Positions 24,297-33,439 of a DNA stretch of 34,349 bases are shown in pieces. Below the pieces are notes generated by a model, which searched no databases, was not told the origin of the DNA, and saw nothing but the letters and a program-made list of their open reading frames with translations. Position 1 is the stretch's first letter, and each line of letters opens with the position of its first letter. Source of the DNA: a virus. The stretch lies in IMG/VR virus record IMGVR_UViG_3300020466_000014, positions 1 through 34,349 of that record; one strand, written 5' to 3'. A program made the translations under genes and the position numbers.

Positions 24297-24972
24297 ATTC
24301 TTTGTTGGTAAGGATCTTTGCCAGTCGTGCATTCATTAGTGCAACGTCTTCATCCAGATCTTTATCAGCAAAGGCTTTAACAACTGTGTCCCACGTGTAA
24401 CCGTGCTCTTCAAACAATGCAACAGCACGCTTGATGCCGATACCAGGAACACCGCTGTAACCATCTGTTTGGTCGCCAGCTAGTGTCTGAATGTAGTGCC
24501 ACTTCTCACCTTCTTCAGGCGTGATTGTGAACATCTCGTCCATGTTGTAGAGACGACCGGGGATTTGTTTCATGTCCTTGTCAGGACTAACGATTACATT
24601 GCCAGGGTGTTCAGTGGCATAGATACCCATGGCATCATCGGCTTCAAGCTCAGGCATACGAATAACTTCGTACATATCGCTGAGTGCTGAAATGACCCGA
24701 CGATATCCGCAGGGCTTCTTTCTATTTCGATGACCCTTGTAATCGGGGTAAATTTTTTTCCGAAAATTCTTGGAGTCACTAAAGAACAGCACCATTTCAG
24801 GTGTGTCCCACAGGAACTGTTGTTTGATTTTCGATAGGTCTTTCTGGACGTTATTCATCGCCTCAGAAAACTTGCTGACGACCATGATGACATCGTCACC
24901 CCAGTCAATATCCGTCTCAGCACCAGCACAAGACTTATAGACGATATAGTCAGCGTCAACTAATAGTTTCAT
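24211..24972 (-). CDS. 5'-3' exonuclease, T7 gp6-like
   Basis: 253 residues (T7 gp6 about 300). FEN/PIN-type features: KLLVDADYIVYKSC at the N-terminus, FFSDSKNFRKKIYPDYKGHR, ELEADDAMGIYA with paired acidic residues, VSPDKDMKQIPG, and the H3TH-type LAGDQTDGYSGVPGIGIKRA. These Asp residues bind the metals for nicking 5' ends. T7 gp6 removes RNA primers and degrades host DNA for dNTPs. The start (24972) shares a base with the polymerase-domain stop. Confidence 0.93.
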   Translation of the reverse strand: MKLLVDADYIVYKSCAGAETDIDWGDDVIMVVSKFSEAMNNVQKDLSKIKQQFLWDTPEMVLFFSDSKNFRKKIYPDYKGHRNRKKPCGYRRVISALSDMYEVIRMPELEADDAMGIYATEHPGNVIVSPDKDMKQIPGRLYNMDEMFTITPEEGEKWHYIQTLAGDQTDGYSGVPGIGIKRAVALFEEHGYTWDTVVKAFADKDLDEDVALMNARLAKILTNKEYDGQVIPWCPTDASDRTNDGAELQATQA

Positions 24973-26240
24973 TAGTGGACCTCCGACCAGTCTTTTCCTT
25001 GCTTGGCTTCAGCTTCGATGGGGACTCGTAAGTTGTAGTACTCGCCAGCCGCTGCAGCGCTATATACCAAGGATGTTGATAGGTCGTTTGCGTGGTCAGG
25101 GTGGCATTCAAATTGCAATTCGTCATGTATAAATGCGAGCTGTGCAGCGCACAAACCCGTCTGTTTAATTGTGTCGTCGTTGATAACCATCCACCGCTTC
25201 GCGACTACACCGGCTCCTGACTGGAGCAGGTAGTTCAAAGATTTGTGTGGACTATCAACCTTTATTTTGCGTCCATCTATAGACCGGATAAAGCCCTTCT
25301 TAGACGCCTCTTTAATTGCCTCAAGTAGTTCCGACAGTCCATCAATAGCAGATACAAACGCTTCCCTGATTTCCTTACCTTTAGTCTTAGCGGTACGGTC
25401 ATTTAAGGAAGAGTCATAGGAATGACCGATTTTGGCGTCTCCGGCACCATAGATGAAGGCATAGGTAATTGTTTTGATTTGCCGCCTAGAAACTCCAACC
25501 CGGTCAGCATTCTGTTGATGGATGTCGCCGTTGAGGAGAGTGTCGGCAAAAGAGTTAGACCACCGGCCAAGATAGTGACCAAGCATCCTAAGTTCAATAC
25601 CTGCAAGATCAGCACCCACCATAATTTGGCCTGGAGATGCTTTGAATAGTTTTCTGAATTCATGTTCACTTGGAGTTTGCCCCAGGTTTGGTTTACGGTG
25701 CGCACATCTGTGCGTATTTGTTGCAACTGAACAGTGGTGATGTATTCGATCAGCACTCGTACATAGCTTCAGCCATGCGTTCGTGCCTTCCGAGATCATC
25801 CCCAATTTCTTCGTAATATCGAGACACTTCAAGAAATCCATCGCAGTCGGTGTCCCAATATCCTTGAGAATCACTTCGTCGATGATGGGCTTCCCAGTAG
25901 GTGTCATCTGGGTTGGAGTCCAACCATGAAATGTTTGCAGGATCCATGAAATATGGTCGCGAGAGGTAGGGTTTAACTCTTTCAGTCTGGTGAATGTACA
26001 TCCGTCAACGTATCCAGAGGTTTTGTTATTTCGTTTAGGAGTGAACTCTGATCCTTGGACGAAAGGATGCCTGTTGCGTAGTATTTCACAAGTTTGTTCA
26101 AGCTCTTTTCTGAGAGAAGATGCAAGTTTCCATGCAGCCGTTGAGTCAAAACTCCATCCATGTAACTCCTGTTGTGTGAGTATTTGTGCAACCTTGTGCT
26201 CTAGAGCGACCCAGTCAGGTAGGGGTGGAAGTGATCGCAT
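24972..26240 (-). CDS. DNA polymerase family A, polymerase domain (C-terminal part, separate frame)
   Basis: 422 residues from the ATG at 26240; the frame is open to 26306, but residues before this ATG are not polymerase-like. Motif A is GADLAGIELR (Asp211), motif B is RRQIKTITYAFIYG (252-265), motif C is IHDE (372-374), as in T7 gp5 and Pol I. The sequence begins at LPDWVALEHKVAQ, equivalent to the T7 segment just after the exonuclease domain. The exonuclease domain is in the upstream frame, overlapping by 40 bases. Either the polymerase is made as two chains or one base has been lost in the CCCC run near 26224. Combined length is about 590 residues, a plausible whole cyanopodovirus polymerase. 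Confidence 0.93.
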   Translation of the reverse strand: MRSLPPLPDWVALEHKVAQILTQQELHGWSFDSTAAWKLASSLRKELEQTCEILRNRHPFVQGSEFTPKRNNKTSGYVDGCTFTRLKELNPTSRDHISWILQTFHGWTPTQMTPTGKPIIDEVILKDIGTPTAMDFLKCLDITKKLGMISEGTNAWLKLCTSADRIHHHCSVATNTHRCAHRKPNLGQTPSEHEFRKLFKASPGQIMVGADLAGIELRMLGHYLGRWSNSFADTLLNGDIHQQNADRVGVSRRQIKTITYAFIYGAGDAKIGHSYDSSLNDRTAKTKGKEIREAFVSAIDGLSELLEAIKEASKKGFIRSIDGRKIKVDSPHKSLNYLLQSGAGVVAKRWMVINDDTIKQTGLCAAQLAFIHDELQFECHPDHANDLSTSLVYSAAAAGEYYNLRVPIEAEAKQGKDWSEVH

Positions 26241-26716
26241 AATTTGGTTGTTACTTTTACATCTTGTATGCAGTAGTCCTGCATTTCTTGGGACCACTCT
26301 TGCCAATCGGTGTCTTTACCAAATGAGCCTTTGTACTCTCCTACTCGGTAACCGTATGACTCAAGTGAATGCCTCCCATAAAGCTGAGATGGCATACGTT
26401 TCCACTTGTGTTTCAGATCTCTTTCCAACATATCGTTGTGATACAACCTTGACAAAAGCAAGGTATCTACAACCAGGGCAGATGGCTCAAACCACGGGTA
26501 GATTTTTTGAAGGACAGGTATGTCATAACCGATGACATTATGTCCGCAGATAATTTCTGCCTCCTGGAGGAGTTGAACACCCCTGACAATTGGCTCCTGA
26601 TCCCCCTCGTCGTTGTAAACAAGGGTTTGGTTAGTGTCCGAGTCATGAATGACCAGACAGTGAATGCGGGTAACATCATCGTATAGACCGTCAGTCTCTA
26701 GATCGAATACGAGCAT
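26201..26716 (-). CDS. DNA polymerase family A, 3'-5' exonuclease domain (N-terminal part, separate frame)
   Basis: 171 residues. DEDD exonuclease motifs: Exo I VFDLETDGL (Asp5, Glu7), Exo II CGHNVIGYDIPVL (Asn and Asp), Exo III MQDYCIQDVKVTTKL (Tyr and Asp). The frame ends HFHPYLTGSL at a TAG inside the polymerase-domain frame; shifting by one base continues into LPDWVALEH, the expected next segment of a T7-type polymerase. The split therefore falls at the linker between proofreading and synthesis domains. All catalytic exonuclease residues appear intact. Confidence 0.92.
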   Translation of the reverse strand: MLVFDLETDGLYDDVTRIHCLVIHDSDTNQTLVYNDEGDQEPIVRGVQLLQEAEIICGHNVIGYDIPVLQKIYPWFEPSALVVDTLLLSRLYHNDMLERDLKHKWKRMPSQLYGRHSLESYGYRVGEYKGSFGKDTDWQEWSQEMQDYCIQDVKVTTKLCDHFHPYLTGSL

Positions 26717-26784: not shown

Positions 26785-28377
26785 TTAGAAATCTGTTGTT
26801 GGATCGAATTCTTCGTCTGGTTCAGTTTCATTGAATTTGCAGGTGTCTAAGTCGTAAGTCAGTTGTGTTGCGATGCCAACTTCGCCTGAATATCGATTTT
26901 TAAGGACTCGCACAGTCGTAGAGCCTCGTTCAGGTCCACTCTGCTGATCTCGTTCCAGCGCAATAACGCCGTCGCTGAGCTGAGCGATAGCAGCAGATCC
27001 GCGGAGCTGTCCAAGCGTGACCCTAGCTCCCTCTTCATGGTTGACATCAGATGTTGTTCTCCGTAAATGTGAAACTAGAAAGAGAGATATGCCTGTCCGT
27101 TCAACCAATGACCTCAACTTAGTCATGGTTTTGTCGATCATTTGCCGTTCATCGCCGTCAAGGCCAGACAGCAAGATAGACAGGTGATCAAGGAAGACAA
27201 CACGGGTCTCAAGACCGGATGCCATATATTCGATCCGTTCGTAAATGTGATCCGGGTCGTATGACCCGAAGCCATCAAATAGGTGTAGATTCCATTTGTT
27301 GATAGTTTTGTCGAACGCATCAACTAGCTCAGATCGGTCGTGCTCTCCGAGGTGGAGACTTTTTCCAACTGCTGCGGACATAAGTCCGAGAGCTGTACGA
27401 CGATTTGATTCTTCAAGTGCCAGGTAACCGACCCGTTCTCCTTTGTTAAGAAGGTGAGCGCATAAGTCCCGACAGAAGGAGGATTTTCCAGCGCCAGAGC
27501 CTGCAGTAATCGTGACAAGCTCTCCGTACCGGATCCCGTGCAGCTTTCTTTGAAGTCCTTGAAAGGGGTACTCATGATCTGATGGAGGTGTTGGTGTAGT
27601 GATTAGGTCAAGTAAGTTTTTGGCATCAACGATGCCGTCAGGCTTGTATTGAGTGTGTGCATAGTTGCAAACAGCTCGTACAGCTTCACTGTCACCAGCC
27701 TGTAAAGCCTCTGAGGCGTCTTTGTAATCGTCTAGAAAGCCGATGTAAACCTTGCCGGGTGGTAACACACCAGCGGCTTCATTTGCAGCCTTCTGACCGG
27801 CTTCGTCGTTATCAAAGAATAGGACTACTTTGTCGTAGTAGTTGATCCATTCATAGTTATTTTGGATCGCTTTTTTGGCAGCAGGCGCACCATTCGGAAT
27901 AGAAACCACATCCCAATTGGGTTGCGCTTCCCAGACACTCATGGCATCCATCTCGCCTTCAACGATGACAAGTTTCTTTTGCTTAGAAGTCGTCTTGTGT
28001 TTGAAGAGGTTCATCCCAAATAGGGTTTTGACCTCTCCTTCACATTTGAACTGTTTGTCTGTTGATCTTACTTTTGCTCCGACAAGCGTTCCAGCGCTGT
28101 CGTAATAATAGTGGCGTAGGACCTTTCCATCTTTGTATGTTTTGAAGAGTTCAGCTGTCTTTTCAGAGATTCCTCGTGATTGCAACCTTCCGGCTGATCC
28201 TTGTAATCGTACATTTGACACGCGATGATTGTGAATAACGTCATTGTCGCCATGCGAATAGGCATGACATCTAAAACAAAAAGTGGAGCCATCAGAGTAC
28301 AAACTGTTCGCATCTGATGACCCGCACTGGTCGCAAGGCATGTGCCTTACAAATTCTGTGTCGCTCATGTGAGCCAT
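26785..28377 (-). CDS. Primase-helicase, T7 gp4-like
   Basis: 530 residues (T7 gp4 566). The N-terminal zinc ribbon has C15, C18, C34, C37 (CDQC...CFRC) for primer-site recognition. A TOPRIM primase follows (LVIVEGEMDAMS; VVLFFDNDEAGQKAA). The C-terminal RecA-type helicase has Walker A GSGAGKSS, Walker B VVFLDHLSIL, and GQLRGSAAIAQLSD. The acidic C-terminus (EPDEEFDPTTDF), like that of T7 gp4, would contact the polymerase. ATG at 28377 or 28368 are both possible; the first overlaps the endonuclease stop by 13 bases. It unwinds the fork and makes primers. Confidence 0.96.
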   Translation of the reverse strand: MAHMSDTEFVRHMPCDQCGSSDANSLYSDGSTFCFRCHAYSHGDNDVIHNHRVSNVRLQGSAGRLQSRGISEKTAELFKTYKDGKVLRHYYYDSAGTLVGAKVRSTDKQFKCEGEVKTLFGMNLFKHKTTSKQKKLVIVEGEMDAMSVWEAQPNWDVVSIPNGAPAAKKAIQNNYEWINYYDKVVLFFDNDEAGQKAANEAAGVLPPGKVYIGFLDDYKDASEALQAGDSEAVRAVCNYAHTQYKPDGIVDAKNLLDLITTPTPPSDHEYPFQGLQRKLHGIRYGELVTITAGSGAGKSSFCRDLCAHLLNKGERVGYLALEESNRRTALGLMSAAVGKSLHLGEHDRSELVDAFDKTINKWNLHLFDGFGSYDPDHIYERIEYMASGLETRVVFLDHLSILLSGLDGDERQMIDKTMTKLRSLVERTGISLFLVSHLRRTTSDVNHEEGARVTLGQLRGSAAIAQLSDGVIALERDQQSGPERGSTTVRVLKNRYSGEVGIATQLTYDLDTCKFNETEPDEEFDPTTDF

Positions 28378-28724
28378 TCAATGGGGATAGTCGCGAAGGA
28401 CGCCCATTTAATGCCGTGGCGTTCACACCACTTGGCATAGGTAGTCTTCGATTTTTTAGAGATAGTGTTGTAGGGTGCCTGAAAGACCATACGAAGATCA
28501 ATGTCAGGGTTTTGTTCGATGACTGACTTGACCTTCTTACGATCCGCACTGTCCCAGTAACCCTTACACTCAAGCCAAACTCCATTCGGAAGAATGAAGT
28601 CTGGTGTGTATGAGTGTTGGATTACATAGGGAACCTTTGTACTTTCATATTCGTATTTGACACCCAGCTCGACGAGAAGATCAGCGACCTTCTCCTCAAG
28701 ACCGGATCGGAAAGCCATACGCAT
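28365..28724 (-). CDS. Holliday-junction endonuclease I, T7 gp3-like
   Basis: 119 residues (T7 gp3 149). FRSGLEEKVADLL supplies the first Glu, and YTPDFILPNGVWLECKG contains the D...ExK metal site of this nuclease family (T7 D55, E65, K67). It resolves branched DNA and helps break down host DNA. ATG at 28724 and 28718 are both possible. The start region includes the left copy of the 19-bp inverted repeat, whose complement covers the start codon. Confidence 0.93.
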   Translation of the reverse strand: MRMAFRSGLEEKVADLLVELGVKYEYESTKVPYVIQHSYTPDFILPNGVWLECKGYWDSADRKKVKSVIEQNPDIDLRMVFQAPYNTISKKSKTTYAKWCERHGIKWASFATIPIEWLT

Positions 28725-28735
28725 GTGGATAGGTC
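28717..28735 (+). repeat. Left copy of 19-bp inverted repeat flanking RNAP-SSB
   Basis: ATACGCATGTGGATAGGTC on the plus strand, exactly the reverse complement of 31730-31748. It covers the endonuclease start codon and ends 2 bases before the SSB stop. The identity stops at both ends and no flanking target duplication is visible. Confidence 0.9.
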
Positions 28736-28737
28736 AG

Positions 28738-29304
28738 TCAGAAGTCTTCTTCAGGCTCACCTGCATCGTTCTGGACGTTGGGCTCATTTGCTTTGTAACC
28801 CTTGGTCGTGCCGAACAGAGCAGCCACGTCCGTGTCTTCCATATCTCCAACATCAACGCCAGCGGCGGATGAAAGGGACACAATCTGTACGCCAACCAAC
28901 TTCAGGCTGGTGCCATACGTGACACCGTCCTTGAGGATGTAAGGCTTTTGGTAAAAAGCGATCTTCACCTTACTACCGCTAAACAGTGGGATGCTTTCGT
29001 CAGTGATTTCAGTGCCCTCAGTGTCAACGATGCCAGGCTTAGCAGCATCATTCCAAGAGAACTTCACTTTGTACTTACCTTCAGACACCTCTTCCCAAGG
29101 CTCAGGCTTGAGAACAGAACGCTTCGGGTTCTTCAGTTTAGACTCAGCCCACTTGAGATTATCAGGACGCTCAGTTTCCAGCTGGTCAGCCATATCCTGA
29201 TCGATAATTGCAGAAAGGCTAAAGCCATACTTGCTTGGTTTCATTACAGCTTGATATCCCTCAAGGACAACAGGCTCTTCAGTTTTATAGATGGTACGTG
29301 CCAT
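28738..29304 (-). CDS. Single-stranded DNA-binding protein, T7 gp2.5-like
   Basis: 188 residues (T7 gp2.5 232). The body is an OB-like beta-rich fold (YKVKFSWNDAAKPG; VKIAFYQKPYILKDG; VQIVSLSSAAGVD). The C-terminal tail is acidic and ends GEPEEDF, the aromatic-ended tail that in gp2.5 contacts polymerase and helicase. It starts on the stop codon of RNA polymerase (TAATG), so it is coupled to it, and its stop lies 2 bases from the 19-bp repeat copy. Confidence 0.9.
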   Translation of the reverse strand: MARTIYKTEEPVVLEGYQAVMKPSKYGFSLSAIIDQDMADQLETERPDNLKWAESKLKNPKRSVLKPEPWEEVSEGKYKVKFSWNDAAKPGIVDTEGTEITDESIPLFSGSKVKIAFYQKPYILKDGVTYGTSLKLVGVQIVSLSSAAGVDVGDMEDTDVAALFGTTKGYKANEPNVQNDAGEPEEDF

Positions 29305-31646
29305 TAACAGAAAAAATAAGTAGATTCAATAACCGATGCGGGTTCTAGTGTGTTACACATCGGTGGTTCAGTCTCTGCTCCAATACATTGGGCAAAGGTA
29401 GTTAAGTAGTTATGCTCCGCAAAGAGGTGCATGTATGTCTCACGAACAATGGCTGATAAAACAGACATGTCAGTAGCACGACAAAGAACCGAGTCGTGTA
29501 TGAGGGATATCGGAGCGTCGAAGCGTAATGCAGATAGGTGTAAAAGGGATGCATCAAGTGAATGAATTAGATTCGGTGCGGTTGCATTTTTGTGGTGTGA
29601 CTTATCAACTTTGTCATCATCTTCTGTAGCGATTCTGATGTGACACCTGCCTAGAAGTTGAAGCTCAATCTCTTGAACCTTTTTCTTCATCAGCTTTTGT
29701 GTGACGACAAACCCAGAAGGTGTGACCCACTGAAGTTCTGTAGCACCACGATCAATGGCCGCGGCCACCTCTGATTCAATCCACCTCATAACCTGCATCG
29801 GACCAGGAACAATGACGTTCATGGCATCTCGCACTGCTTTAACAGTTGCAGTCAGGTCATCCTTTTCAACCTCAACACCCTTTTCCAACAACGCTTCACG
29901 GATGTAACCCCTGTTGCTGTAAGGCTTTGCGTTGTAAGGCACCGTCATCACGGTCCTTTTGGTCGTTTTCCTGTCCATGTACGGACGGATACACTCAGGT
30001 ACATGTGGTTTAGCTTCTTCAGCTATCACCTTGTATGCGTCCTGAGGTTTATCACTCGGAAGAACATTTACCAACCGAGCCGTAGATGCATCTCTTGCTA
30101 GTCCAGCAAGTATCTGCAAACCACTACATGTAGCGTCTACGGCAACAGGTAGTGAAGTATGAGTGCGATCACATTTGATAACACAGTGATAGTACTCATC
30201 ACATGCGGCAAGGAAAGTCCAAGGCTCTTCAGCACCTTCCCATTCAGGTCGATTACTAATTGGATCTTCTGCTATTCGTGAAATAAGGTTGTGATTTTTG
30301 GCTACCCAATCAAGACGATCAGACATTGTGTCCTTGTCTTTGCCGTATGTTGTTGCGACTTGAAAGGCAAGCCACTGCTCAGCTTCAGGAGTCATGAATG
30401 ACTGCTCATAAAACTTGAGTAGTGACTTACCAAAGTCTGTATCTTGTGGTGTCAAAAAGGCAGGGATTGGGTAAGCCCTACCTCTGTAGTCAAAGCTCCA
30501 AGGTATAAAGAATTTCTCTTTGTCCTTGAATACTTTCACTGCGTTCATGGTCATCCTTGTACGACATGACCGTTGAAACGCTTGTGCATTTGTGTTGTGT
30601 ACCTCCGCAGCCTTGCGGTTGTAGTCATGCCGAGCTTTTTTGTTCTCAGCAATGTCGTAAGGCTTAGGTGGTAGAGGTAACTCCACGATAGGGATGAACT
30701 TTCCTACCTGTATCCCTCGTTCAAGTAGTGTCTCTGCGACACCGACGATGAACGGGTTCAACGTGTAGCCAACCTTCTGGATCTTGTTCAGAAAATTGAT
30801 TGGTGTTTCTCCCTGTATACACCGGGGATCAGCACGCCGAACCATGTCATACCCACGCATGACTTCGTTCAGCAGGTATCCGCCTTGCCGTTCGTTGGTC
30901 CAGTCGTTCGGTTCGATCAGCATTGGCCAAGCCAACGGACTGAACAGCTCAGCAGTAGCCATCACTTCTTCCTTAATGGACAGGAAGTGCGTGCTTGGGA
31001 TGATGTAGTTGTGACGCTTGCGTCCCTCTTGCCTCATCTCACGGGTAAACCACCCGCTTGCTTCGATGATGCAGTCAATGAGCCAACTGCCAAGCTTGAT
31101 TCGGTTGGCTCGACCCCAGCACTCCCAGTGTGGTACGTCGTAGCGGTTCATCAGCGTCGTGATGACCTTGACCTTTTGATGCGTACCGATGGACCGGTGG
31201 AAGTAGTTTTCCTTCAGCGTGTGTAGGAGACCCGGCACTTTGCGTTCGTAGTGCCGCATCATGCACTCGTTTTCGACCGCCTGCCCTATCGCTTCCGTGA
31301 CGCTTTGGACTTGGTTGGCTTTGGGTTTGTTGCTGAACACCTTGTCAAAGGTGACCTTGCAAGCGATGGCAGCCGCAGCTTCAGGTTCAATGTCGGACAG
31401 GTACTTTTGGATTTCAACAAAGGAACGTCCATTTTTTCCTTTCTTTATCCGTTCAAGAGCAGTTTCCTGAATACGTCCGACCACAAGAGGCAGAAGCTGC
31501 TCAATAGAAGCCACGCCATACACACTTGCAGACGCATACTCTTTGTCCTCTAGTTTTCTTTGGTTGTCGTGTAGTTGCTTGAGTCCTTGGCGTATTTGCT
31601 CACGCTCAAGCTCCACTTGCTCGTGGATCTCTGCCTTAGTTGCCAA
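29304..31646 (-). CDS. Phage RNA polymerase, single-subunit T7 type
   Basis: 780 residues (T7 883). Motif A is VAVDATCSGLQ (Asp504), motif B is TKRTVMTVPYNAKPY with Lys563 and Tyr571, motif C is LIHDS (Asp718), and SFDYRGRAYP (384-393) matches T7 DWRGRVY. PNLIHSLDASLLHL is also conserved. The C-terminal YFFC resembles the aromatic foot of T7 RNAP. The start is TTG at 31646: an in-frame TAA lies four codons upstream and there is no ATG until about residue 129. It would transcribe the middle and late genes; its promoters were not identified. The gene lies inside the 19-bp inverted repeats. Confidence 0.97.
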   Translation of the reverse strand: MATKAEIHEQVELEREQIRQGLKQLHDNQRKLEDKEYASASVYGVASIEQLLPLVVGRIQETALERIKKGKNGRSFVEIQKYLSDIEPEAAAAIACKVTFDKVFSNKPKANQVQSVTEAIGQAVENECMMRHYERKVPGLLHTLKENYFHRSIGTHQKVKVITTLMNRYDVPHWECWGRANRIKLGSWLIDCIIEASGWFTREMRQEGRKRHNYIIPSTHFLSIKEEVMATAELFSPLAWPMLIEPNDWTNERQGGYLLNEVMRGYDMVRRADPRCIQGETPINFLNKIQKVGYTLNPFIVGVAETLLERGIQVGKFIPIVELPLPPKPYDIAENKKARHDYNRKAAEVHNTNAQAFQRSCRTRMTMNAVKVFKDKEKFFIPWSFDYRGRAYPIPAFLTPQDTDFGKSLLKFYEQSFMTPEAEQWLAFQVATTYGKDKDTMSDRLDWVAKNHNLISRIAEDPISNRPEWEGAEEPWTFLAACDEYYHCVIKCDRTHTSLPVAVDATCSGLQILAGLARDASTARLVNVLPSDKPQDAYKVIAEEAKPHVPECIRPYMDRKTTKRTVMTVPYNAKPYSNRGYIREALLEKGVEVEKDDLTATVKAVRDAMNVIVPGPMQVMRWIESEVAAAIDRGATELQWVTPSGFVVTQKLMKKKVQEIELQLLGRCHIRIATEDDDKVDKSHHKNATAPNLIHSLDASLLHLSALRFDAPISLIHDSVLCRATDMSVLSAIVRETYMHLFAEHNYLTTFAQCIGAETEPPMCNTLEPASVIESTYFFC

Positions 31647-31663
31647 TAAGAATGCGCGTTAGA

Positions 31664-31687
31664 TCCGGTATTTAGATCTATACCGGA
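31664..31687 (-). promoter_or_regulatory. 8-bp hairpin just upstream of the RNA polymerase start
   Basis: TCCGGTAT (31664-31671) and ATACCGGA (31680-31687) form a perfect 8-bp stem with loop TTAGATCT. It lies 17 bases before the TTG start, where a ribosome would bind. It could be an RNase III-type processing hairpin, as before T7 gene 1, or an operator. No U tract follows. Confidence 0.45.
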
Positions 31688-31729
31688 GTGGATCGATGAT
31701 TGTGAAAGAAAGGTCAGGCGTCTCAACCC

Positions 31730-31748
31730 GACCTATCCACATGCGTAT
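31730..31748 (-). repeat. Right copy of 19-bp inverted repeat flanking RNAP-SSB
   Basis: GACCTATCCACATGCGTAT on the plus strand, the exact reverse complement of 28717-28735. It lies 83 bases upstream of the RNA polymerase start and 13 bases from the tRNA-Leu-like attachment sequence. The two copies bound a 3,032-bp segment holding only RNA polymerase and SSB. Confidence 0.9.
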
Positions 31749-31761
31749 TTTAGACGCTCAG

Positions 31762-31803
31762 GAACCTGAAACTAGCGCGTCTACCAATTCCGCCACATCC
31801 GCG
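31762..31803 (-). other. Probable attP: 5' half of a tRNA-Leu gene
   Basis: On the minus strand, GCGGATGTGGCGGAATTGG (from 31802) then TAGACGCGCTAGTTTCAGG are the acceptor 5' strand, D-arm and CAG anticodon loop of a bacterial tRNA-Leu. Downstream of the loop the sequence cannot complete the anticodon stem and no T-arm or 3' acceptor follows, so it is half a tRNA. The 42-base length equals that reported for the tRNA-Leu match in phage P-SSP7 (from memory). It lies beside the integrase gene. Confidence 0.75.
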
Positions 31804-31885: not shown

Positions 31886-32746
31886 TTAGATCGCAGCCAT
31901 AGCCTCGTTTAAGGCTGAGTCCGTGGTCTTTGCGTAGCGAAGGGTGGTCTCGATTCGCTTGTGTCCCATGAGCGTCATCAGTGTTCGCATGGGTGTCCCT
32001 GCCTCTGCATGCCACGTGGCAAATGAATGCCTCAGGCTGTGAAAGACAAGGGAAGGATCCAAGCCTGCGTACTTACGTACTCGCTTGAACGACCTGAGCA
32101 ATTGGTCCTTGTCATTCCATTCATCCCCGAACACCCTCACGTTGGGTGAGAGGTACTCAAGACGCTCAGAGAGCAGCCCAGATATACGTTCGTGGACAGG
32201 AATGGCACGGTAGTTGCCAGGTTTGGTGCGTTGATCAGGGCGACCACCGACATGAATCAGACCTGCGCCTAAGTCAATGTCACGTGCCTTGATCTTCAGC
32301 AGCTCACCCTGTCGCATGCCTGTGTAGGCAGCCATGGCAACAATGTCTGCCACGTCCTTGCGATCGAACGGGTCAATCGCTGCGTGGATGAGCTGATCAA
32401 CCTCAGCTTTGGAGAACCAAGTGAGGCGTACTTCATCCTCCTTACGTTTTGTGAACGTCGGAGGTTTGTTGCACAACTCACGCCGATGGCAGTGGTTGAG
32501 CACAGTGGACACAGCAGACGTAACACGGTTGATCGTGGCGTCTGACTTGCCTTCCTCCTCAAGCTCAACACCAATGTCCTCCATGATGGTGACGTTGATG
32601 CGATTGCAAGGGAAGCTGAGTCCTTGGAGTCGGGTGAAGTGACCGCAGTTGATGATCGCTGGCTTGCGACCAGATCCGTTACGCCACGTTGGACGTGTTC
32701 GCAACGTTGTTTCTACGGCTTCACCCCAGGTGAATTGTTTAGCCAT
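31886..32746 (-). CDS. int: Tyrosine recombinase (integrase)
   Basis: 286 residues. The catalytic set is complete: Arg145 (TGMRQGELL), Lys175 (RTKPGNYRAIPV), His236 and Arg239 (HSLRHSFA), His262 (MGHKRIETT), and nucleophile Tyr271 (LRYAKTT). An N-terminal SAM-like domain (residues about 45-95) binds the core site, and the first 40 residues look like a short arm-binding region. It lies next to the tRNA-Leu half-gene, the probable attP. Stable lysogeny by cyanopodoviruses has seldom been shown, so its use is uncertain. The start overlaps the MarR-like gene by 8 bases. Confidence 0.95.
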   Translation of the reverse strand: MAKQFTWGEAVETTLRTRPTWRNGSGRKPAIINCGHFTRLQGLSFPCNRINVTIMEDIGVELEEEGKSDATINRVTSAVSTVLNHCHRRELCNKPPTFTKRKEDEVRLTWFSKAEVDQLIHAAIDPFDRKDVADIVAMAAYTGMRQGELLKIKARDIDLGAGLIHVGGRPDQRTKPGNYRAIPVHERISGLLSERLEYLSPNVRVFGDEWNDKDQLLRSFKRVRKYAGLDPSLVFHSLRHSFATWHAEAGTPMRTLMTLMGHKRIETTLRYAKTTDSALNEAMAAI

Positions 32747-33089
32747 AAATGATGGATTTCATTTGCTTGGCAAGTTGCTTGCCTTTAGGTGTGAGGCGAA
32801 GTCTTTGTCGCCTTCCGTCTTGCTCCTTTGTGATGAGCCCTAAGCCTTTGTGCTTAACACCCATCCGCCCATCACTCAGCCAATCTGTGTTGCGGCTGGA
32901 TGATGCGGTCGTGAAGTTCAGCTCCTGTTCCAACGCTTGCTTGTGACAGCCGTCGTGTGAGGCGATGTACAGGAAGGTGCTGACCAGTTGACCGGGGATC
33001 TCTCGATCAAGCAGACGCAGCATGTCAAAGGCTTGATGAACCTTGTCTAGGCGTGCGTCCGTGCACTGAATTGCGAGTGGATCGGGCAT
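32739..33089 (-). CDS. Winged-helix DNA-binding protein, MarR-like
   Basis: 116 residues. A helix (VHQAFDMLRLLDREIPGQLV) precedes TFLYIASHDGCHKQALEQEL, a plausible helix-turn-helix, then LGLITKEQDGRRQRLRLTPKG, which is a typical MarR wing with its LTxKG ending. MarR-like genes occur before the RNA polymerase in this phage group. It may repress its own promoter or host genes; the dyads at 33135-33162 are possible operators. The start is the ATG at 33089, and the gene overlaps int by 8 bases. Confidence 0.8.
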   Translation of the reverse strand: MPDPLAIQCTDARLDKVHQAFDMLRLLDREIPGQLVSTFLYIASHDGCHKQALEQELNFTTASSSRNTDWLSDGRMGVKHKGLGLITKEQDGRRQRLRLTPKGKQLAKQMKSIIYG

Positions 33090-33130
33090 GCCAAGGGCGT
33101 GTACCTGATAACTCTAGGCGTAATCTACCG

Positions 33131-33167
33131 ATGTGGATAGATATATCCAAAAAGGATTCCTTATCAA
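33131..33167 (-). promoter_or_regulatory. Possible sigma-70 promoter with overlapping dyads
   Basis: On the minus strand TTGATA (33167-33162) lies 16 bases from TATATC (33145-33140), close to the -35 and -10 consensus. GGATA-GATA-TATCC (33135-33148) overlaps the -10, and AAGGA-T-TCCTT (33152-33162) lies in the spacer and touches the -35. It would drive the MarR-like gene and int, about 50 bases downstream. ATGTGGATAG here is shared with the 19-bp repeats. Confidence 0.4.
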
Positions 33168-33181
33168 TGGTCACGTAAAGA

Positions 33182-33439
33182 TCAGGCAGGTGGATCATTG
33201 GTCTGGTTGAGTTCCTCGATTAAAAGTTCTTTTAGACGATAAGCGTTACTACCTACGGGATAGTTGCCAGACAAGAACATCGTTTGTATTTGGTTATCCG
33301 TTCTTACACGTTCGGCAAAATCCTCTTGAATCATTTTGTACACATAATCAGAAACGGTTACGCCCTTAAGTGCACATGCACTTTTGAGTAAGGCATGGCA
33401 TGGCTCTTGCATGTTGAAGTTGACTCGTTTTTGATTCAT
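33182..33439 (-). CDS. Ribbon-helix-helix (CopG/Arc-type) regulator
   Basis: 85 residues. KRVNFNMQEPCHALLKSACA then LKGVTVSDYVYKMIQEDFAE gives a beta-strand followed by two helices (residues 4-42), the ribbon-helix-helix fold; the strand residues would insert in the DNA major groove as a dimer. The C-terminal half is acidic and helical with no known motif. It lies at the start of the region before the MarR-like gene. It is probably an early transcription regulator; its target is unknown. Confidence 0.8.
   Translation of the reverse strand: MNQKRVNFNMQEPCHALLKSACALKGVTVSDYVYKMIQEDFAERVRTDNQIQTMFLSGNYPVGSNAYRLKELLIEELNQTNDPPA

Follow-up and report, generated by a model that had tools for sequence, protein, structure and literature searches.

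The stretch of DNA considered here, IMG/VR virus record IMGVR_UViG_3300020466_000014 (positions 1 to 34,349, referred to as the window), is, on the evidence of its sequence, a contig of a Synechococcus T7-like podovirus close to S-TIP37. It carries a 19-bp inverted repeat, ATACGCATGTGGATAGGTC at 28717-28735 on the plus strand and its exact reverse complement at 31730-31748, around the genes for the phage RNA polymerase (RNAP) and the single-stranded DNA-binding protein (SSB). Here we ask what this repeat is. Related phages and contigs are given by name or by L and G numbers.

The repeat pair and its gene setting

The genes of the locus lie on the minus strand. Their order is MarR-like regulator, integrase, attP, RNAP, SSB, endonuclease, and the features are as follows.

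28365-28724, minus strand: Endonuclease I gene (PF05367, 9e-42)
28717-28735, minus strand: left repeat copy, reading GACCTATCCACATGCGTAT on the gene strand; a sense instance of the motif described below (position weight matrix score 17.8)
28738-29304, minus strand: SSB gene (homology to annotated cyanophage ssDNA-binding proteins)
29304-31646, minus strand: T7-like RNAP gene (PF00940, 2e-66)
31677-31696, minus strand: site M2, TCGATCCACTCCGGTATAGA, in the sense orientation
31704-31734, minus strand: terminator-like hairpin between attP and RNAP, AGGTCGGG...CCTGACCT then TTTCTTT, overlapping the right copy
31730-31748, plus strand: right repeat copy (site M1), TATCCACATGCGTAT on the plus strand, opposite to the genes (position weight matrix score 19.2)
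31762-31802, minus strand: core of attP; blastn aligns it with S-TIP28, S-CBP2 and bacterial tRNA-Leu, whose 5' part it matches
31886-32746, minus strand: tyrosine integrase (PF00589, 1e-25)
32739-33089, minus strand: MarR-like winged-helix regulator (phrog_9665), homologous to PSSP7_011/pMarR of P-SSP7; its gene overlaps the start of the integrase

A first-pass annotation of the window had described the repeat as perfect and beyond chance, and on both counts it was right: the two copies match exactly, no third copy is present in the window at up to 3 mismatches, and shuffles expect 0.01. Its distances are also correct, with 2 bases between the left copy and the SSB stop (28738), 83 between the right copy and the TTG start of RNAP (31646) and 13 between the right copy and the tRNA-Leu-like attP, where homology to S-TIP28 and S-CBP2 begins at 31762. 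The claim that the repeat exactly brackets the RNAP-SSB pair needs a correction: the left copy also overlaps the endonuclease ATG (28724), and the pair sits within a single co-directional operon. The function of attP in S-TIP37 is treated in PMC8776855. IMG/VR contig L002 has the same repeat pair at the same spacing; over 12.5 kb it is 99.94% identical to the window (7 single-nucleotide differences, 0 of them inside the repeats), and it runs 1.26 kb past the window end.

A dispersed family of intergenic sites

Both copies are instances of a recurrent pseudo-palindromic intergenic motif, about CTATCC-N6-GTATAG, with the consensus (C)TATCC-ACTNNG-GTATA and half-sites ~6 bp apart. A search with the half-pattern TCCAC-N4-GTA(T) located further gene-strand sites in the same phage (L002 at 415 and 747, and M2) and in its relatives. 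An unsupervised k-mer search of intergenic DNA placed the motif among the leading repeated elements of the window phage (with L002), S-CBP1 and P-SSP7 (positions 1810, 5971, 14102, 40305 and 42058), and found in S-TIP37 a concerted variant, ACCTGTGC..GCA, at 566, 1427, 5040 and 41710. One of the S-TIP37 sites is the perfect palindrome CCTGTGC-N6-GCACAGG, and in the window clade CTATCC-N6-GTATAG is symmetric at 5 of 6 bases; both are thus palindromic sites of ~16-20 bp, as expected of MarR-family operators. The 15-mer TATCCACATGCGTAT of the window repeat recurs in S-CBP1 at an unrelated early locus.

Sites are found at the left end, among the early genes, at attP/RNAP and near the right end, ~4-7 being recognised per genome. 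They occupy short gaps, mostly within a few bases 3' of a stop codon, and in the hand-curated noncoding set ~34 are oriented along transcription and 4 opposed to it. The two copies of the repeat belong to this family and face opposite ways, which lends support to the first-pass annotation's option of two divergently placed binding sites. Since both copies are family members, for which 19 identical bases have a probability of ~2e-4 per site pair, a segment bounded by repeats is no longer needed to account for them. This value is far above the background rate of unrelated DNA yet small, and the identity is somewhat striking, so that a recent copy event is possible.

The right copy is kept at 0-1 mismatch in L001, L015, L095, L096, L097, L101 and L102. 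Where the integrase is 85-98% identical to that of the window, the stretch from integrase to RNAP is mostly conserved, in the order attP, right copy, hairpin, M2; the exception is L098-L100, which retain the layout and not the right-copy sequence. In most relatives that have the integrase, M2 (ATCCACTCCGGTATAGAT) sits at -49 relative to the start of RNAP, and the AGGTC end of the right copy doubles as the 5' arm of the hairpin (GGTC being the first arm). The RNAP leader (window 31650-31700) contains a 7-bp hairpin, CCGGTAT-N8-ATACCGG, after M2; at this position other clades have inverted repeats that are similar but not the same.

The left copy is contained in a 20-bp lineage-specific insertion, CTGACCTATCCACATGCGTA, from the SSB stop to the endonuclease open reading frame (ORF), and at this junction it is absent from every relative examined. 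L021, L096 and others have a stop/start overlap (TTCTGATGGC) here and L014-L018 and L095 a small gene inserted instead. Judged from this absence, the left copy is a recent lineage-specific gain and the right copy is older. The left site may have replaced such a small gene, because the leading TTCTGACTG of the window insertion is common to L016 and L018. The junction (window 28724-28738; L014-L020, L095, L024) is a hot spot of small-gene turnover, one example being a ~60-residue protein ending EIVEEIIEKNIDD; the window has the 20-bp insertion only.

Several matches and categories were set aside. Motif matches at -391 before the integrase, inside the integrase (366/550) and near the RNAP 3' end are coding coincidences, falling on conserved peptides such as HxGRLRxE and VLSTLVRETYM. 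An unannotated small ORF at window ~33090-33182, upstream of the MarR-like ORF, encodes the conserved peptide HxGRLRxEW; it is found ahead of the MarR gene in most phages that have the integrase, and its likeness to the motif is due to chance. An RNA hairpin element was rejected, as M2 folds (z about -3) and most other sites do not. DnaA boxes were rejected also: the left half of the motif resembles the DnaA box consensus TTATCCACA, but neither its GTAT half nor the S-TIP37 variant agrees with such a box.

Candidate binders and rival explanations

We think it probable, with moderate confidence, that the inverted repeat consists of two operators of a dimeric phage MarR regulator, placed in opposite orientation and drawn from the dispersed family. 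The genome does encode a winged-helix MarR-like regulator, as its match to phrog_9665 'transcriptional regulator' (9e-36) and its homology to pMarR indicate; it also matches the BilQ model (NF045593) at 1e-7, below the cut-off of that model. Residues S66, R67 and G106, which are needed for pMarR function (PMC9692554), are invariant across the regulator family. Sites were found only in phages with an integrase-linked MarR-like gene. In S-SBP1, S-RIP2 and S-CBP4 the MarR gene is undetectable and sites are absent too, and at an orthologous early locus the integrase-plus phages have a site, S-TIP37 has its own variant, and S-SBP1, which carries neither integrase nor MarR gene, has the flanks only. 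Two phages, L052 and L053, have a swapped integrase, 27-32% identical to all others, and for the MarR protein of L053 the identity to its counterparts in the window, S-CBP1, S-TIP37 and L119 is 49-58%. M2 is kept in both, with TCCACTAACGTACACA in common with S-CBP1, as are additional sites in other gaps. Of the three linked or nearby proteins (RNAP, integrase, MarR-like regulator), the last therefore appears the best candidate, because the RNAP-bearing S-SBP1, S-RIP2 and S-CBP4 lack sites and the phages with the swapped integrase retain them. A partial Mantel test (25 phages, S-TIP37 included) gave a correlation of site with recognition helix of r = 0.35 (p = 0.004) given integrase and RNAP, of site with integrase of r = 0.40 given helix and RNAP, and of site with RNAP of r = -0.12 given helix and integrase.

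A number of observations weigh against this interpretation. The first Mantel test used full-length distances and a set that excluded S-TIP37; in it RNAP correlated as well as the integrase and MarR added nothing beyond the integrase. Re-registered sites and the inclusion of S-TIP37 changed the RNAP result, so the outcome depends on the data chosen and, as the first version failed to separate the candidates, the statistic should not carry weight alone. The regulator has no Pfam MarR match and is assigned to the family through phrog_9665, its published homologue and weak matches in NCBIfam and PDB. The one pMarR target described in the literature, MED4 rne Pi+, was located by its coordinates in a 1,657,990-bp genome, and a scan of it gave no match to the motif. 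The MarR-bearing L105-L108, L113-L116 and L127 have strongly altered or few recognisable sites. A purely symmetric dimer would not be expected to give so strong an orientation bias, and the left copy, confined to this lineage, has no conservation support of its own.

Apart from these points, integrase is present in L118, L123 and L124 and no MarR-like gene was recovered upstream of it; in L123 and L124 the tRNA-Leu attP before RNAP is also missing, with an unrelated reading frame in its place. A scan of genome contigs found chromosomal MarR relatives at 2 loci only.

The sites might instead be promoters of the T7-like RNAP (TATCCACTNNGGTATA then G), in which case the left copy would act as a class II-like promoter before the endonuclease. 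Points in favour are the sense-strand bias, the location of sites behind stop codons, the -49 position of M2 relative to RNAP, the G014 site in the RNAP/SSB gap, and some likeness to Syn5 ATTGGGCACCCGTAA and to the predicted Era103 promoter. The first Mantel test also gave a partial correlation with RNAP, which is gone once S-TIP37 is included. We nevertheless consider it unlikely: S-SBP1, S-RIP2 and S-CBP4 have similar RNAPs and no sites, S-SBP1 missing exactly the site at the conserved early locus; L001, L097 and L101 have differing RNAP specificity loops with M1 and M2 identical or near-identical; and the capsid gene has no preceding sites. For P-SSP7 (L147) an RNAP promoter has been predicted in silico, AAAATTCTTCAAGTTTACAA (PMC11475235), which is unlike the repeated intergenic motif; no validated P-SSP7 RNAP promoter was found in the literature.

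The closeness of the right copy to attP, pointed out in the first-pass annotation, is real. M1 and M2 are 14-85 bp away from the core of attP and vary together with the integrase (r = 0.40 given helix and RNAP), as would be the case if the copies were integrase arm-type sites of attP and the left one a stray duplicate. Arm-type sites are expected to be confined to attP and to follow the integrase, however, and here the sites are also kilobases off, the right end included, and persist in L052 and L053 despite the replaced integrase, while the P-arm side of the attP core has no motif match in the window; we regard this explanation as highly improbable. Nor is it an integrase inversion site, because the sites are genome-wide and kept in a phage with a replaced integrase. 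L069, L072 and L074 are a clade with another integrase and another tRNA-Leu core, and upstream of RNAP they have several TATYCAC-NN-GTGGATA-like repeats around attP; these repeats are possibly true integrase arm sites.

The 19-bp identity could also stem from a recent event in which the right site served as template for a copy at the SSB/endonuclease junction, leaving a functionless scar of cassette exchange. The probability of ~2e-4 per pair of family members fits such an event, as does a left copy within a 20-bp insertion at a junction of small-gene turnover with TTCTGACTG common to L016 and L018. The insert, however, is a full motif in the favoured orientation directly after a stop codon, like the other sites, and G014 has a site one gene upstream, in the RNAP/SSB gap, so we rate a functionless copy as quite unlikely. 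Least probable, to the point of being negligible, is the invertible or transposable segment that the first-pass annotation had offered as one option, in which recombination between the 19-bp copies flips RNAP-SSB. A gene pair flanked by exact inverted repeats would suit it, but gene orientation is uniform in related loci (RNAP-endonuclease 124/124, integrase-RNAP 64/64), with the opposite RNAP/endonuclease orientation in 0 of 124, and L002 has the usual orientation too; the left copy is in no relative examined; no transposase, invertase or other recombinase was recognised beside the pair except the attP integrase; and a flip would turn RNAP and SSB antisense inside their operon. Relatives keep the right copy without the left in an unchanged gene order, the very pattern that had been named as counting against inversion. 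A false lead, the invertible RNAP cassette, is thereby removed.

Two further features of the window lie outside the locus. The DNA polymerase is split into overlapping frames for its exonuclease and polymerase parts, 24972-26306 and 26201-26716, an arrangement also found in the annotations of S-TIP37 and P-SSP7, and a tail-fibre-like gene at 1316-2623 has imperfect repeats at 1890-2296 (D1/D2, including a 90-nt tandem pair).

Proposed regulation and comparison with known systems

The sequences show a site family, the way it is distributed and oriented, its concerted variation and its occurrence together with the MarR gene; that the MarR regulator binds the sites, and in which direction it acts, we infer. 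Such binding would modulate phage transcription. The site at RNAP could gate the switch to transcription by the phage RNAP, a role suggested by its placement before that gene. The effect could be repression or a stoperator-like roadblock in the integrated state. It could also be activation by recruitment of host RNAP, in line with the activation that is reported for pMarR at host rne. In this lineage the new left site would bring the endonuclease and the downstream replication genes under the same control. More tentatively, and we hold it possible rather than likely, integrating T7-like cyanophages might carry a genome-wide stoperator-like network in which the integrase-linked MarR protein acts on oriented sites, including the one before RNAP, to silence or redirect transcription. 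If so, a lysogeny-type switch in an otherwise lytic T7 lineage would be built on a MarR protein, and phage-specific site alphabets would define immunity groups. With a site alphabet before the phage RNAP that is absent from integrase-less relatives, the question of MarR/integrase control is directly testable on short DNA duplexes and laboratory phages already at hand, S-TIP37 being open to engineering and P-SSP7 pMarR having been purified.

Among the closest known systems is P-SSP7 pMarR (PMC9692554), which likewise adjoins the integrase and shares the invariant S66, R67 and G106. It is a dimeric DNA-binding protein, also gp0.7-like of T7-like cyanophages, that activates host rne with an affinity of 320 nM and no defined site, and it is reported to bind the alpha subunit; the dimer of the window protein is predicted by homology. 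The rne Pi+ segment differs in having no motif, and neither sites in phage genomes nor phage targets of the P-SSP7 protein are reported in the literature found. The order integrase, attP, RNAP is that of the S-TIP37/P-SSP7 integration module, for which the text available from PMC8776855 treats attP and integrase and does not describe M1, M2 or the dispersed sites; according to the same text T7-like cyanophages integrate into hosts and stable lysogens were not obtained. The sites resemble the single-subunit RNAP promoters of T7 and Syn5 (PMC3950665) in being short, directional and intergenic with an A+T-rich right half, but their presence appears to track the MarR/integrase module and not RNAP similarity. 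In layout they resemble the stoperators of Cluster A mycobacteriophages (L5, Bxb1; PMC6550527), repressor sites which are also dispersed over the genome and oriented with transcription and whose divergence tracks that of the repressor. The L5 stoperators, however, are 13-14 bp sites without dyad symmetry, bound by a monomer and numbering 20-30 per genome, whereas those described here are pseudo-palindromic, ~4-7 are recognised and the candidate binder is MarR-like. Dispersed short-gap sites and a predominant orientation are thus common to the two, and a monomer site lacking dyad symmetry is not; because the sites are pseudo-palindromic we do not class them as stoperators, and the likeness is one of layout only.

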